This document shows, piece by piece, positions 26,764 to 35,457 of a stretch of 40,616 nucleotides of DNA; position 1 is the first letter of the stretch; the number at the start of each line of letters is the position of its first letter. Below the pieces are notes generated by a model that saw nothing but the letters and a program-made list of their open reading frames with translations, was not told the origin of the DNA and ran no database searches. A program made the position numbers and the translations under genes. Location of the stretch: assembly GCF_964222135.1 (NCBI RefSeq), contig NZ_CAXQBR010000066.1, positions 1 through 40,616 on the forward strand, in the 5' to 3' direction. This stretch comes from Euzebya sp. (lineage in GTDB: Bacteria; Actinomycetota; Nitriliruptoria; Euzebyales; Euzebyaceae).

Positions 26764-26792
26764 TTGTGCCTGCTCCGGGTCGGGCGTAGCGT
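26764..26792 (+). promoter_or_regulatory. Promoter of the TolB-like/CWB2 protein gene
   Basis: TTGTGC (26764-26769) and TAGCGT (26787-26792) are separated by 17 bases, upstream of GTG 26830. Here there is a leader of about 30 bases with an AGGGG ribosome site, in contrast to the leaderless promoters elsewhere in the window. Just upstream GTGA and TCAC (within 26741-26756) form a short inverted repeat with 8 bases between. Confidence 0.45.
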
Positions 26793-26829
26793 CCGCTCGT
26801 CTCGCAGCCGACACCAGAGGGGTGGACCC

Positions 26830-28947
26830 GTGGGCATGACATCGAGCCGTACTCGCGCGACGGGCGCATCCGTCGCCGCCATCGCCGTCGCGCTGGTCGC
26901 CGCCGTCCTCGTCGCGGTTCCGGCGAGCGCCGCGGCCACGGGGAGCATCGTCTTCACCCGTGACCACGACGTCTGGATCATGGCGGCCGACGACCCCTCC
27001 ACCGCGCGGCCCGTCACGACCGACGGGACCGCCGCGGCGCCCTACCTGTTCCCGTCCCAGGACGACCAGGGCCGCATCGTCGCGGTCACGGGTGGTGAGG
27101 GCGGGCAGGTCGTGCGGATGGACCAGGAGGGGACGGTCCTCGACGGCCCGTTCAGCGTCCCCGGCGGCAACTTCCAGGACCTCGACGTGCGCGCCGAAGG
27201 GGAGGTGTTCACCTACACCACCTACCAGAGCTACCAGACGCCCGAGGGCTTCGTCGTGGCCCCGACCGTCGACTTCGCCTACGCCGACGGCCGGGACCCG
27301 GCGCCGGTCGCCAACCCGGCGTTCGACTCCGCGGACGCGACCTACTCGACCGATCGGGCGTTCCTCATCGACTACGACGACGACAGCACCCCCTGGGTGG
27401 CGACCTACGGCCCGTCGGGCGCGGCGCTGCAGAACTGGTTCCAGCCGTGCACCGCCCCCACCCAGGCCGGGGACGACAACCTCGGCTGCTTCCCGTCGAT
27501 GGCGGACGTCACGACCGCGCAGGACCGCGTCGTCGTCGCCCTGCCCGGCATCGCCTGGGTGCCGGTCGGCTCCCGCCTCTACGTCTTCGAGATGACCGGC
27601 CCGCCACCCGCCGCGCCGACCTTCTCGTGTGAGATCGTCGGCCCCGAGCCGAGCTTCTCCGACACCCGGTCCTTCCGGAACCCCGAGTGGTCGCCCGACG
27701 GGTCCTCGCTCGTGTGGGAGCTCGTGCGCGAGGGCGAGGAGGGCACCGGCTCCGGGGAGCTGTTCATGGCCACCGGGCTCGACACCGACTGCGAGGGCGG
27801 GTTCGCCGCTGCCGTGTCGCTGGGCGTCGGCGGTTCGCCGGACTGGAGCGCCGCACCCCTCGGTGCCGCCCCCGGCGAGCCGACGGACCCGCCGACCGAG
27901 CCGACGGACCCGCCGACCGAGCCCCTCCCCCCGGGTGCGGTGCCGGAGCCGAGCCCGGTCGACCCGACGGAGCCGCGTGGCGCGTTCGACGGCAACCCCG
28001 CCACGACCGAGCGGGTCAACGTCAGCGACCCGATCGCCATGGGCCTCGCGATCTCCCGCGCGCGCTTCGCCGACGGCGCAGCCGGCCGCGTCGTGCTCTC
28101 CCGCGACGACGAGTTCCCCGACTCCCTCGCCGGGGCGACGCTCACCGCCGACGGACCCCTGCTGTTCACCCCGACCGGGCAGCTGCACGCCGGCACCCGG
28201 ATGGAGATCCAGCGGGTCCTGCCGCCCGGCGGCACCGTCCACGTCCTCGGCGGAGTGAACGCGGTGTCGGAGGAGGTCGAGGCCGAGCTGACCGCCCTCG
28301 GCTACGTCGTGGACCGCCTGGCCGGTCCCTCCCGCGTGCAGACCGCGATCGCCGTCGCGGACCGGGTGCGCCAGGTCGCACCCGGCACGACCGCGGTGGC
28401 GCTCGCCCGCGCCGGCGGACCCGCGGACAACCCGACCGCCGGGTGGGCGGACTCGGTCACCGGAGGGGCGTGGGGCGCGGCCACCGGCGTCCCCACGCTG
28501 GTGACGGACACCGCGGCCCTGCACCCCGACGTCGCCGCGTGGCTGTCCGCCAACGGCATCGACCGGACCGTGCTGTTCGGCGGAACCGCCGCGCTGTCCG
28601 ACGCGGTGGCCGGCGCCGTGCCGAACCCGGTCCGGATCGCCGCCTCCGAGCGGACCGGCACCGCCGCGGCGATCGCCGCCTCCCTGTGGCAGGCCGCGGA
28701 CTCCGGCCCGCGCCGCTTCACGATCATCGACGGGTTCGACCCCGACGGCTGGGCCTACGGGCTGGCCGCCGCCGGGATGGCGTCGGACGCCGGTGCCCCG
28801 CTGCTGATGGTCAACGGCGACGTCGTCCCGGACCCGACCGCGGCGATGGTCACGGGCTGCACCGAGGTCGACCTGGCCCTCATCGGCGCCGGCTCGGTCA
28901 TCAGCCACCCCGCCGCGGTCCAGCTCGACGAGCTCGACACCTGCTGA
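26830..28947 (+). CDS. Secreted TolB-like propeller protein with three CWB2 modules
   Basis: The 705-residue protein has a signal peptide (AAIAVALVAAVLVAVPASA, cut about 34/35), a TolB/WD40-like beta-propeller region (about 38-345: SIVFTRDHDVWIMAADD, PEWSPDGSSLVWELV and similar), a proline-threonine linker with PTDPPTE repeated (about 348-370) and three CWB2 modules (about 395-705: VHVLGGVNAVSEEV, VLFGGTAALSDAV and a last degenerate one). Its architecture parallels the minus-strand protein at 8255-10426: signal, propeller, three CWB2. GTG 26830 fits a ribosome site; an ATG two codons later is possible. It presumably binds the cell wall and displays the propeller. Confidence 0.85.
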   Translation: MGMTSSRTRATGASVAAIAVALVAAVLVAVPASAAATGSIVFTRDHDVWIMAADDPSTARPVTTDGTAAAPYLFPSQDDQGRIVAVTGGEGGQVVRMDQEGTVLDGPFSVPGGNFQDLDVRAEGEVFTYTTYQSYQTPEGFVVAPTVDFAYADGRDPAPVANPAFDSADATYSTDRAFLIDYDDDSTPWVATYGPSGAALQNWFQPCTAPTQAGDDNLGCFPSMADVTTAQDRVVVALPGIAWVPVGSRLYVFEMTGPPPAAPTFSCEIVGPEPSFSDTRSFRNPEWSPDGSSLVWELVREGEEGTGSGELFMATGLDTDCEGGFAAAVSLGVGGSPDWSAAPLGAAPGEPTDPPTEPTDPPTEPLPPGAVPEPSPVDPTEPRGAFDGNPATTERVNVSDPIAMGLAISRARFADGAAGRVVLSRDDEFPDSLAGATLTADGPLLFTPTGQLHAGTRMEIQRVLPPGGTVHVLGGVNAVSEEVEAELTALGYVVDRLAGPSRVQTAIAVADRVRQVAPGTTAVALARAGGPADNPTAGWADSVTGGAWGAATGVPTLVTDTAALHPDVAAWLSANGIDRTVLFGGTAALSDAVAGAVPNPVRIAASERTGTAAAIAASLWQAADSGPRRFTIIDGFDPDGWAYGLAAAGMASDAGAPLLMVNGDVVPDPTAAMVTGCTEVDLALIGAGSVISHPAAVQLDELDTC

Positions 28948-30791: not shown

Positions 30792-30835
30792 GTCAACGGT
30801 GGTTGACACTCCATCGGCCGTCAACTACAGTTGAC
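30792..30835 (+). promoter_or_regulatory. Twin palindromic operators in the HTH/Clp-N promoter
   Basis: GTCAAC-N4-GTTGAC occurs twice, at 30792-30807 and 30820-30835, with centres 28 bases apart. The first palindrome contains most of a consensus -35 (TTGACA, 30803-30808), and 17 bases later the second contains the -10 (TACAGT, 30826-30831). Transcription would start at about 30838, the A of the ATG, so the transcript is leaderless. Two dimers bound to these sites would occlude the promoter completely. The HTH protein encoded by the first gene is the obvious candidate to bind here. Confidence 0.75.
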
Positions 30836-30837
30836 AC

Positions 30838-31068
30838 ATGACCGCACCACCGGTGATGACCGCCGCAGGGGAGGCGTCGAGCCGCGACCCCGCCATCGGC
30901 CTCCGCGCCGTCGCCGCGCTCCGGGACCTGACCGATGACCTCGAGGTCCTGCAGGTCGACAACGCCCGCGAGCAGGGCTGGTCGTGGCAGCAGATCGCCG
31001 ATGCGCTCGGGGTCTCCAAGCAGGCGGTCCACAAGAAGCACGCGCGCAGCCGGCTGCGGAGGAGATGA
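30838..31068 (+). CDS. Small HTH DNA-binding protein (regulator of the Clp-N gene)
   Basis: The 76-residue protein has a helix pair (IGLRAVAALRDLTDDLEVLQVDNARE) and then a clear helix-turn-helix, WSWQQIADALGVSKQAVHKKHARS, close to sigma-70 region 4-like/MerR-type HTH. It has no ligand domain. It is followed 4 bases later by the Clp-N gene and preceded by two palindromes overlapping the promoter, so autorepression is likely. HTH plus Clp-N gene pairs of this kind occur widely in actinobacteria and are usually taken as stress-response modules; the signal is unknown. Confidence 0.85.
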   Translation: MTAPPVMTAAGEASSRDPAIGLRAVAALRDLTDDLEVLQVDNAREQGWSWQQIADALGVSKQAVHKKHARSRLRRR

Positions 31069-31072
31069 GGAC

Positions 31073-31591
31073 GTGTTCGAGCGGTTCACCGACAACGCCC
31101 GCGACGTGGTCGTCCGGGCCCAGCAGGTCGCCCGCGACCTCGGCCAGCGGACCATCCGCCCGACCGACATCCTGCTCGCCATGGCGGAGGGGACCGACCA
31201 GATGGCCGGCGACATCCTGCGCACCGCCGGGCTGGACGGGCCCCGGCTCCGCGAGCACCTGCGACACGCCTCGGACGCGGCGGTCCTGCGCACGCTGGGC
31301 ATCGACCTCGACGCCGTCCGCGACCAGGTCGCCGAGACCTTCGGCGATGGCGCCCTCGAGCGCGCTGCCCGCAAGCCCAAGGGCCACATCCCCTTCACCA
31401 AGCCGGCGAAGAAGGTGCTCGAGCTGTCCCTCCGCGAGTCCCTCGCCCGCAAGGACGGGTACATCGGCACCGAGCACATCCTGCTCGCGCTGTTCCGGGA
31501 GGGCGGCGAGGCGGCGGACCTCCTCCGCGCGTCCGGCATCGACCGCGGCCTGGTCGAGCAGGGGATCGCCGAACGGCGCGCCGCGGCCTGA
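31073..31591 (+). CDS. Stand-alone Clp N-terminal domain protein
   Basis: The 172-residue protein has two Clp_N repeats: FERFTDNARDVVVRAQQVARDLGQRTIRPTDILLAM and, after a linker, FTKPAKKVLELSLRESLARKDGYIGTEHILLALF. In ClpA/ClpC these repeats bind adaptors and substrates (or phosphoarginine); here there is no AAA+ domain, so it is an adaptor-like or decoy protein. Its GTG is 4 bases after the HTH gene, so the two are co-transcribed and co-regulated. The combination suggests control of ClpC-dependent proteolysis, by inference. Confidence 0.87.
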   Translation: MFERFTDNARDVVVRAQQVARDLGQRTIRPTDILLAMAEGTDQMAGDILRTAGLDGPRLREHLRHASDAAVLRTLGIDLDAVRDQVAETFGDGALERAARKPKGHIPFTKPAKKVLELSLRESLARKDGYIGTEHILLALFREGGEAADLLRASGIDRGLVEQGIAERRAAA

Positions 31592-32917: not shown

Positions 32918-33285
32918 CGGGAGGGTCCTTCCGGCGGAGGGGTGACGGGCATGTGCGAGCCGAACGACAGCAGGTTGCCGTCCGGGTCGGCGACGACGAA
33001 GGTGCGCTGGCCCCAGGGCTCACGGCGGAGGGGGTGGTGGAGCCGCGCCCCGCGCTCCCGCACCTCGAGGTAGAGAGCCCTGACGTCGTCGACCTCGAAC
33101 CGGACGGCGAGGAGATCGGGCTCGGGAGGGGGCGCCGGCCACGGCGGGTCGGTCTTCCGGCGCAGGTTGAGCGCCACGCCGTCACGGCTCAGCTGCGCGT
33201 GGAACGGCGGGACGCCGTAGACGTAGTCCACGCGGAAGGCCAGCACGTCGGCGTAGAACTCGATCGAGGGAGGGATCGCCCGCAC
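32914..33285 (-). CDS. VOC/glyoxalase-fold protein
   Basis: The 123-residue protein has a single VOC module: SIEFYADVLAFRVDYVYGVPPFHAQLSRDGVALNLRR and a second half with LLAVRFEVDDVRALYLEVRERGARLHHPLRREPWGQRTFVVADPDGNLLSFG, typical of bleomycin-resistance/dioxygenase-fold proteins that work as dimers. GTG 33285 starts close to the usual N-terminal strand; a few residues of that strand (QVFV) lie upstream, so an undetected start is possible. It is the middle gene of a three-gene minus-strand operon (33570 to 32495). Confidence 0.8.
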   Translation of the reverse strand: MRAIPPSIEFYADVLAFRVDYVYGVPPFHAQLSRDGVALNLRRKTDPPWPAPPPEPDLLAVRFEVDDVRALYLEVRERGARLHHPLRREPWGQRTFVVADPDGNLLSFGSHMPVTPPPEGPSR

Positions 33286-33306
33286 GAAGACCTGGGCGAA
33301 CGCCCG

Positions 33307-33570
33307 TCACGTCCCCCGCCACGGGGCCGGTCGAGCCTCCGGGAGATCGGTCGCGGCCGTCAGCTCCTCCCACGTGGGGAAACCGAGCTCGGCGGCCAGC
33401 ACCTGCTGTGCGTCCCGCAGCGTGAAGCGGGCGTCCAGGACCTCGAGGTCGGTCATGCCGGCGAACCGCGGCGCGTGCTGCCGGATCCGCTCCGGCACGG
33501 TGATCAGCCCCGCCCGGTGGTCGCGCACCAAGTGCTTCGCACGCTTGCGGATGTTCTCGAGTTCGTCCAT
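33307..33570 (-). CDS. Small helical protein (ankyrin-like N-terminal motif)
   Basis: The 87-residue protein reads MDELENIRKRAKHLVRDHRAG, then VPERIRQHAPRFAGMTDLEVLDARFTLRDAQQVLAAELGFPTWEELTA. The second half, with RDAQxVLAxExGFPxWxxL, is a helical motif often found at the start of ankyrin-repeat or glyoxalase proteins in actinobacteria; here it stands alone before a VOC gene. Perhaps a split of such a fusion. A GGGAGC-like site lies upstream of ATG 33570. Divergent from HerA. Confidence 0.7.
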   Translation of the reverse strand: MDELENIRKRAKHLVRDHRAGLITVPERIRQHAPRFAGMTDLEVLDARFTLRDAQQVLAAELGFPTWEELTAATDLPEARPAPWRGT

Positions 33571-33679
33571 GGGAGCCTCATGAACGAGTGGGCCGTGCCC
33601 TTCCCGGACGTCCCGGGCGCACCTCGACGCGTGCGGCGAGGTCACCATATCCCATGTCGACCCGTCTGGGACGACCGGT

Positions 33680-33716
33680 GCAGGTGCTCGGCGTTGTCGC
33701 ACCTGCTGCCTATCGT
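33680..33716 (+). promoter_or_regulatory. Inverted repeat and -10 upstream of the HerA-like gene
   Basis: GCAGGTG (33680-33686) and CACCTGC (33700-33706) form a perfect 7-bp inverted repeat. TATCGT (33711-33716) would be a -10 with a transcription start at or next to ATG 33724. No good -35 is seen at 17 bases. A regulator may take its place. Tentative. Confidence 0.35.
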
Positions 33717-33723
33717 GAGGGTC

Positions 33724-35457
33724 ATGGATGTCCCCACCCCCGATGCCCAGACCACGCCCGCCGGCCGCGTCATCGGGACCGAGGCCGCCCGGCCGCTCGA
33801 GTTCCACGTGCACGTGGGGCCCGGCCAGTTCCTCCAGCTCGACGACATCGTCGCGGTCCGCCGGCCCGTCCCGGGGCAGTCCGACATCGAGCTGTACGGC
33901 GTGGTCACCGAGGTGCGGGGCTTCCACGAGGGGCTCGAGCACCACTCCGACGTCGAGCGGGTCATGGCCGGGCAGATGTACGGCCGGGCATCGGAGGTCG
34001 CGACGATCCTCACCACCCGGATCGAGCCGGAGGTGTTCCTGCCGCCGATCCCCGGCAACGAGGTCCACAAGGTCGCCGGCCGTCAGCGCGACAAGGCGAT
34101 GTTCCTCGACAAGATCGAGCCGGGGCGACGCCTCGCGTCGGGTCTGCACCGCGCAGGTGGACCGGTCTTCGTGGACGCCGACTTCGTCGACGGGACCAGC
34201 GGCGCGCACGTGAACATCTCCGGCGTCTCCGGCGTGGCGACCAAGACGTCCTACGCCACGTTCCTGCTGCACGCGCTGTTCCACGACGGCTCGACCGTGC
34301 TCGGCCCCTCCGGAAAGCACGCCCGATCGCTGATCTTCAACGTGAAGGGCCAGGACCTGCTGTACCTGGACCAGCCGAACGCCCGGCTCAGCGTCGAGCA
34401 GCGGGCCAGATGGGCCGAGGTCGGCCTGCCCGCGCAACCCTTCGGCTCGGTCGCGTTCTGGTCGCCCCCGGTGAAGGGGGCGGCATCGCCCACCCCCGCC
34501 AGCGCCCGCAAGGACAAGGTCCGCGCCTACTGGTGGTCGCTGGCGGACTTCTGCGCCGAGGGCATGCTCAGCCTGCTCTTCGCCGACACCGACGACGAGC
34601 GCCAGCAGTACACCGCGGTCGCCCGCAACGTCGCGACCGCCCTCGAGCGGTTCGCCACCCCCCTCGCCCAGGGAGGGGTCCAGATCGGCGTGGAGCAGGC
34701 CACCACCTTCGCCGACCTGGTCCGGATCATCCGCGACTACGCCGAGGACGAGGACCCCCAGTGGGTCGGCCGGTTCGCCACCTCCGGGTCGATCGGGGCG
34801 TTCATGCGCCGGCTCGACTCCGCCGCGGACCACGTCGCCCACCTGATCCGCGGCGACCAGGACGGCTGGCAGCGCCACCGGGTCCGGGTCATGAGCTCCG
34901 ACGAGCAGGTCAACGTCGTCGACCTCACCCCGCTGTCCGGTCGGGCCCAGCGCTTCGTCGTCGGCGCGCTGCTGACCCAGGAGTTCGCGGCCAAGGAGGC
35001 GCGGGGCACCCGCGACCCGCTGCTGTTCGTCGTGCTCGACGAGCTCAACAAGTACGCCCCCCGGCAGGGCAACTCACCCATCAAGTCGACCCTCGTCGAG
35101 ATCGCCGAGCGCGGACGGTCCCTCGGGATGATCCTCATCGGCGCCCAGCAGACCGCCTCCGCGGTCGACGAGGCGATCATCACCAACGCCTCGATCAAGG
35201 TCGTCGGCCGCATGGACCCCGCCGAGGCGTCGAAGAACGAGTACCGCTGGATGCCCGAGTCCCAGCGCGACCGGGCGATGCTGATCAACCCGGGCACGAT
35301 GATCCTGAAGCAGCCGCGCGTCCCGGCGCCGCTCGTCGTGAACTTCCCGATGCCCGCGTGGGCGACCCGGGCGGAGGAGGTCGCGATGGACGTCGCGGGC
35401 GCGCCCGGCCTCGCGGGCGGCGACCCCTTCGACACCGACACGTTCACCCGCGGCTGA
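33724..35457 (+). CDS. HerA-like hexameric ATPase/helicase (DUF87)
   Basis: The 577-residue protein has an N-terminal barrel (about 15-150: GRVIGTEAARPLEFHVHV, DIVAVRRPVPGQSDIELYGVVTEVRG) and an ATPase core with a Walker A of form GVSGVATKTS (Thr where the usual Gly precedes Lys), Walker B LLFVVLDELNKYAP (about 435-450), AERGRSLGMILIGAQQTASAV as the sensor region and NASIKVVGRMDPAEA. This is the HerA/FtsK-like group that translocates DNA in repair with NurA nuclease. No NurA is next to it. ATG 33724 has a -10 7 bases upstream and no leader. It may be an accessory ATPase of unknown role. Confidence 0.83.
   Translation: MDVPTPDAQTTPAGRVIGTEAARPLEFHVHVGPGQFLQLDDIVAVRRPVPGQSDIELYGVVTEVRGFHEGLEHHSDVERVMAGQMYGRASEVATILTTRIEPEVFLPPIPGNEVHKVAGRQRDKAMFLDKIEPGRRLASGLHRAGGPVFVDADFVDGTSGAHVNISGVSGVATKTSYATFLLHALFHDGSTVLGPSGKHARSLIFNVKGQDLLYLDQPNARLSVEQRARWAEVGLPAQPFGSVAFWSPPVKGAASPTPASARKDKVRAYWWSLADFCAEGMLSLLFADTDDERQQYTAVARNVATALERFATPLAQGGVQIGVEQATTFADLVRIIRDYAEDEDPQWVGRFATSGSIGAFMRRLDSAADHVAHLIRGDQDGWQRHRVRVMSSDEQVNVVDLTPLSGRAQRFVVGALLTQEFAAKEARGTRDPLLFVVLDELNKYAPRQGNSPIKSTLVEIAERGRSLGMILIGAQQTASAVDEAIITNASIKVVGRMDPAEASKNEYRWMPESQRDRAMLINPGTMILKQPRVPAPLVVNFPMPAWATRAEEVAMDVAGAPGLAGGDPFDTDTFTRG

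Follow-up and report, generated by a model that had tools for sequence, protein, structure and literature searches.

A two-gene relative of the ClpC2 autoregulatory circuit in Euzebya sp. and other actinobacteria

Introduction

ClpC1 is a tuberculosis drug target, and ClpC2 blunts the action of cyclomarin-type drugs and degraders. The mycobacterial protein ClpC2 (Rv2667), a partial homologue of ClpC1, is an autorepressor that cyclomarin A releases from its promoter; acting as a sponge for this ClpC1-binding antibiotic, it shields the cell (PMC10030653). Its conserved operator, CGTCAAC-n5-GTTGACG, is repeated upstream of the gene in many species and overlaps both promoter elements, the -35 and the -10; the start is leaderless (PMC10030653; Taylor et al., 2023). 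Crystals were obtained of residues 4-72, called the dimerisation domain, and of residues 94-252, in which DNA binding was placed (PMC10030653). An HTH region in ClpC2 has already been pointed out in a 2026 paper (PMC13284704).

Here we describe a locus in Euzebya sp. in which an HTH protein and a Clp-N protein are encoded by two adjacent genes. The window is the whole stretch of DNA analyzed, positions 1-40,616 of contig NZ_CAXQBR010000066.1 (GCF_964222135.1; genome of 5.06 Mb). The module is the same kind of circuit as ClpC2, in a two-gene form and distinct from ClpC2 itself. Among open-licence papers we found no published account of this form; PDB entry 8b9o, considered as a possible two-gene Clp-N structure, was ruled out as it is the C-terminal domain of Mycobacterium smegmatis ClpC2.

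Results

Operators and promoter of the Euzebya locus

The preliminary description of this DNA, made from the sequence alone, had placed two identical GTCAAC-N4-GTTGAC palindromes on the -35 and -10 of a leaderless promoter, with centers 28 bp apart. The palindromes are present as described and the distance was borne out; the half-sites are the same in both copies, and the four-base cores differ (GGTG vs. TACA). The two promoter elements are separated by a 17-bp spacer and the ATG at 30838 follows the -10 by only 6 nt, so that a leaderless start is expected for the HTH gene. The features are collected in Table 1.

Table 1. Features of the HTH/Clp-N locus (positions in the window)
Feature	Position	Strand	Basis
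Operator site 1, GTCAAC-N4-GTTGAC, over the -35	30792..30807	.	GTCAACGGTGGTTGAC; kept in 80/80 homologous loci
-35 element, TTGACA	30803..30808	+	Read from the sequence; TTGAC-TAnnnT spacer of 17-18 in 142/155 two-gene loci
Operator site 2, GTCAAC-N4-GTTGAC, over the -10	30820..30835	.	GTCAACTACAGTTGAC; ends 2 nt before the ATG; kept in 80/80 homologous loci
-10 element, TACAGT (TAnnnT)	30826..30831	+	Read from the sequence; same 142/155 two-gene loci
Putative HTH repressor gene, 76 aa, leaderless	30838..31068	+	ORF; Pfam HTH_23, 6e-6; AlphaFold pLDDT 88, helices 50-57 and 61-75
Recognition helix, residues 61-68 (KQAVHKKH)	31018..31041	+	Q62, A63, V64, H65 and K67 do not vary in alignment A1; aligned counterpart of TKQAAQKR in the fused ClpC2 homologues
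Stand-alone Clp-N, 172 aa, GTG start, no AAA domain	31073..31591	+	Pfam Clp_N; model vs. ClpC1-NTD; follows the HTH gene in 152/155 loci
Extra conserved Clp-N segment, about residues 53-98, candidate HTH-docking element	31229..31366	+	Alignment, in which the ClpC NTD and the C-terminal domains of fused ClpC2 are shorter; L72, G76, D78 and G91 invariant in A2

Perfect GTCAAC-N4-GTTGAC sites occur twice in the 5.06-Mb genome, both times at this gene pair, where the dinucleotide make-up of the window predicts ~0.07 single perfect sites and ~1e-8 such close pairs by chance. A shuffle test of the window with two mismatches allowed was weak and uninformative alone (2 found vs. 1.0 expected), and the reality of the operators therefore rests on the genome-wide count and on the homologues. 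A wider regulon was not apparent, as no further perfect N4 site was found in the Euzebya genome; the one-mismatch near-matches (5 further, compared to 3 for a reversed control pattern) were dismissed as mostly chance, except for one beside an HTH paralogue.

The same genome encodes a second HTH paralogue of 84 aa and 54% identity (G000:C23:19899-20150; locus L090, ~1455-1720), with one imperfect site (ATCAACACATGTTGAC) over a possible start codon; downstream of it, a Clp-N-like open frame breaks off early, after 59 residues, and the whole looks like a decaying copy. Elsewhere in the window, a long open frame (32953-35457) has a C-terminal part that resembles a HerA-type ATPase by eye and gave no Pfam match, and a predicted protein (26764-28947) carries three cell-wall-binding CWB2 repeats (Pfam).

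Conservation of the gene pair and its operators in actinobacteria

A scan of a genome collection with the HTH protein yielded 80 actinobacterial loci, and the search for the palindrome before homologous pairs that the preliminary description had proposed was carried out on these. The twin sites, with at least 21 of the 24 half-site positions matched, are found at all 80, which supports the view that the operator is autoregulatory for the HTH/Clp-N pair. Nearly all of them have a TTGAC-to-TAnnnT spacer of 17 or 18; in some loci with shifted sites the -10 hexamer moves inside the second site. The centers lie 27 (38 loci), 28 (37 loci) or 29 bp (5 loci) apart, with no other values. Such distances would put the two dimers ~205-275 degrees apart around the helix, i.e., on different faces as first described; the spacing needs no special meaning, since operators placed over the -35 and over the -10 will lie this far apart wherever the promoter spacer is 17-18 bp. 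A significance of the 28-bp helical phase was thus dropped, as the distance varies and tracks promoter geometry.

In a larger set of 155 two-gene loci, the start codon lies 2-4 nt past site 2 in 152, and the Clp-N ORF directly follows the HTH gene in 152 as well (of the three exceptions, two lie where a contig ends). None of the three flanking window genes tested (methyltransferase-like, DUF427 and PPOX) turned up at any of the 80 loci, and no larger conserved operon was seen with them, which indicates that the HTH/Clp-N pair is a self-contained module. We concluded that the two ORFs are real, conserved as a pair and widespread in actinobacteria.

Spacer length separates two-gene and fused loci

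A phylum survey with the HTH profile returned two classes, a stand-alone HTH protein of ~70-90 aa with a separate Clp-N gene and a fused protein of ~240-260 aa. The fused ClpC2 homologues have the same HTH, half-sites, promoter overlap and leaderless start as the two-gene loci. The operator spacer differs: N4 is the best fit in 161 of 162 two-gene loci, whereas N5 is the best fit in 39 of 40 fused loci, the remaining one being a tie between N5 and N6. The fused sites carry C before and G after the palindrome at 91-100%; the two-gene sites are without these flanks and mostly have A following the TTGAC at the -35. Among the 31 genomes with both loci fetched, all lean toward N4 at the two-gene and N5 at the fused locus, 27 of them cleanly. 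When 20 whole genomes were scanned for perfect N4 and N5 sites, most of the sites were at the locus of the matching class and some were strays. When HTH and Clp-N sequences were concatenated for a tree, a single, fully supported branch split fused from two-gene forms, which argues that the link between architecture and spacer length goes back to one ancient event that has been retained since, and not to many independent ones. The interpretation given in the preliminary description was partly upheld, and it had missed the characterized fused relative ClpC2, with the same half-sites and a different spacer length.

Some relatives depart from the two classes. In one genome with both forms, an additional HTH paralogue stands alone and is preceded by a single perfect N4 site (G288:C1:1652713-1652957). 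At three loci (L149, L151 and L152) an HTH of the window family lies in open frames of ~190-235 aa, with neither Clp-N nor twin operators; these may correspond to the fusions with other domains noted in PMC13284704. A same-genus relative (L157; G247:C1:2385670-2387043) encodes a fused, ClpC2-like protein in which an acidic, low-complexity second half takes the place of the second Clp-N repeat.

The HTH protein as the probable reader of the operator

The HTH_23 match in the 76-aa protein is above the Pfam cut-off, and a structural search with its model gave best rows that were mostly DNA-binding HTH proteins, at a Z of only ~5. We found no matching phage record that would indicate a phage origin. 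The ClpC2 structure 8ada is absent from the structural list, and the HTH profile aligns with it as far as V72, where 8ada ends (E 0.011, weak alone). Past this position the fused homologues run on with TKQAAQKRF, the match of SKQAVHKKH in the window recognition helix; the recognition helix of ClpC2 would thus lie in the stretch seen in neither crystal. The salt-bridge residues of the ClpC2 dimer, D46 and R57, align with D33 and the invariant R44 of the window protein, so that the published "dimerisation" residue R57 falls inside the HTH by this alignment. Taken together, the helix in the gap between the crystals and R57 within the HTH point to the HTH as the likely reader, and the fact that the operator is just as well conserved where the HTH is a protein of its own speaks for the same assignment. 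Judged from the alignment and the published constructs, the HTH most likely reads the operator.

The alternative is that Clp-N itself binds DNA, as proposed for the C-terminal domain of ClpC2, with the HTH only a dimerisation partner. Its basis is that R185A/R189A weakens DNA binding in ClpC2 (PMC10030653). In the window Clp-N, however, the putative DNA-binding residue R185 corresponds to R121, which is also present in ClpC itself, and R189 corresponds to A125 in a variable column; the HTH recognition helix, by comparison, is near invariant, and in ClpC2 it follows V72, outside both crystals. We consider DNA binding by Clp-N very unlikely.

The stand-alone Clp-N protein

The GTG of the Clp-N gene begins 4 nt after the HTH stop, and the two ORFs are in different frames. 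The Clp_N domain (PF02861) scores 75.7 bits against a cut-off of 20.7. The model (pLDDT 92) superposes on the cyclomarin-bound M. tuberculosis ClpC1-NTD with a Z of 22.5 and 43% identity, nearer than to ClpC2 (Z 18.0). By alignment, the cyclomarin-contact residues F96, F172 and E181 of ClpC2 are F2, F108 and E117 here, with 97, 91 and 91% conservation across the Clp-N proteins of two-gene loci; the position of Q94 falls before the Clp-N start. Besides ClpC, the Euzebya genome encodes one further full-length Clp-N-bearing protein (ClpB-like), and no other stand-alone Clp-N above the Pfam cut-off was found in it.

The preliminary description had seen in this AAA-less protein an adaptor or decoy for ClpC. 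The decoy part gained support by likeness to ClpC2, for which it was shown experimentally (PMC10030653), and the protein likely acts as a competitor or sponge for ClpC ligands. As an adaptor or anti-adaptor, Clp-N would dock on ClpC or hand the HTH protein to ClpCP for degradation, and so sense free protease capacity. This would fit its homology to the ClpC N-domain; to our knowledge, however, the known ClpC adaptors bind the N-domain and none is itself an N-domain, and the conserved groove suits ligand competition. The adaptor reading thus seems to us distinctly improbable.

Between its repeats, the two-gene Clp-N has ~30-45 residues more than the ClpC domain, including a strongly conserved stretch (IGIDLDAVR...FGPGALD), the tail of which has no counterpart in fused ClpC2. 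As the two-gene form has no covalent link to the HTH, this insert is a candidate docking element. Since the 76-aa HTH protein leaves no room for a sensor domain, the Clp-N partner is the obvious sensor. It could be argued instead that the HTH protein is a constitutive or self-titrating autorepressor, with Clp-N only its regulated product (sponge, holdase or ClpC competitor) and no feedback: the HTH is complete, D33 and R44 are predicted dimer residues of its own, and conservation of the operator requires just the HTH. Against this stand the strict pairing and tight gene spacing, the presence of the insert only in the two-gene form, and the control of DNA binding in fused ClpC2 by ligand on the Clp-N domain (PMC10030653). 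We regard repression by the HTH alone as unlikely.

Discussion

The locus is probably a two-gene form of the ClpC2 autoregulator, in which the HTH protein represses its own operon and Clp-N senses and mops up ligand. The proposal is underpinned by the anatomy of the locus, the conservation of the operators and of the groove residues, and the pairing of the two genes. The HTH protein would dimerise and bind the two 16-bp operators over the -35 and -10 of its own leaderless promoter, and thereby silence the operon. The co-transcribed Clp-N, a likely copy of the ClpC substrate-binding groove, would most likely serve when free as a dissociable co-repressor in contact with the HTH protein. Filling of the groove by unfolded protein or a ClpC-directed natural product may lift repression, and Clp-N, then made in quantity, would mop up the ligand and spare ClpC.

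More tentatively, many actinobacteria may possess two parallel, insulated ClpC-guard circuits from one ancestor, ClpC2 on N5 and the two-protein form on N4, separated by one spacer base and the flanks, with Clp-N docking on the HTH via the conserved insert as a detachable co-repressor; we offer this as a possibility somewhat short of probable. Many members of the same family have the two-gene locus as well as ClpC2, and a second guard circuit of this kind would add a layer of tolerance. With sensor and DNA-reader split into two proteins, the operator-reading domain of ClpC2 becomes directly testable, and the N4/N5 pair offers a natural system of one-base operator discrimination.

Three known systems can be compared. 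The antitoxin RelI (Rv2664) belongs to the same wider family as the window HTH and is likewise small and stand-alone, and the HTH profile A1 finds its structure 9sdc at 1.4e-4; its partner is the RNase toxin RelS, whereas that of the window HTH is Clp-N, and its authors saw no evidence that the RelSI complex binds DNA (PMC13284704). No RelS/BrnT-like toxin was found beside the window HTH gene, which adjoins Clp-N within flanks formed by DUF427 and the methyltransferase-like gene. The ClpC N-terminal domain (PF02861) shares fold and ligand groove with the window Clp-N, which lacks the AAA modules. Closest is ClpC2, with an HTH-type domain and Clp-N, conserved cyclomarin-contact residues, twin GTCAAC/GTTGAC half-sites over the -35 and -10 and a leaderless start all in common; ClpC2, however, is one polypeptide under an N5 operator with conserved C...G flanks, whereas the window HTH and Clp-N are the products of two genes under an N4 operator without those flanks, and the Clp-N carries an extra segment.
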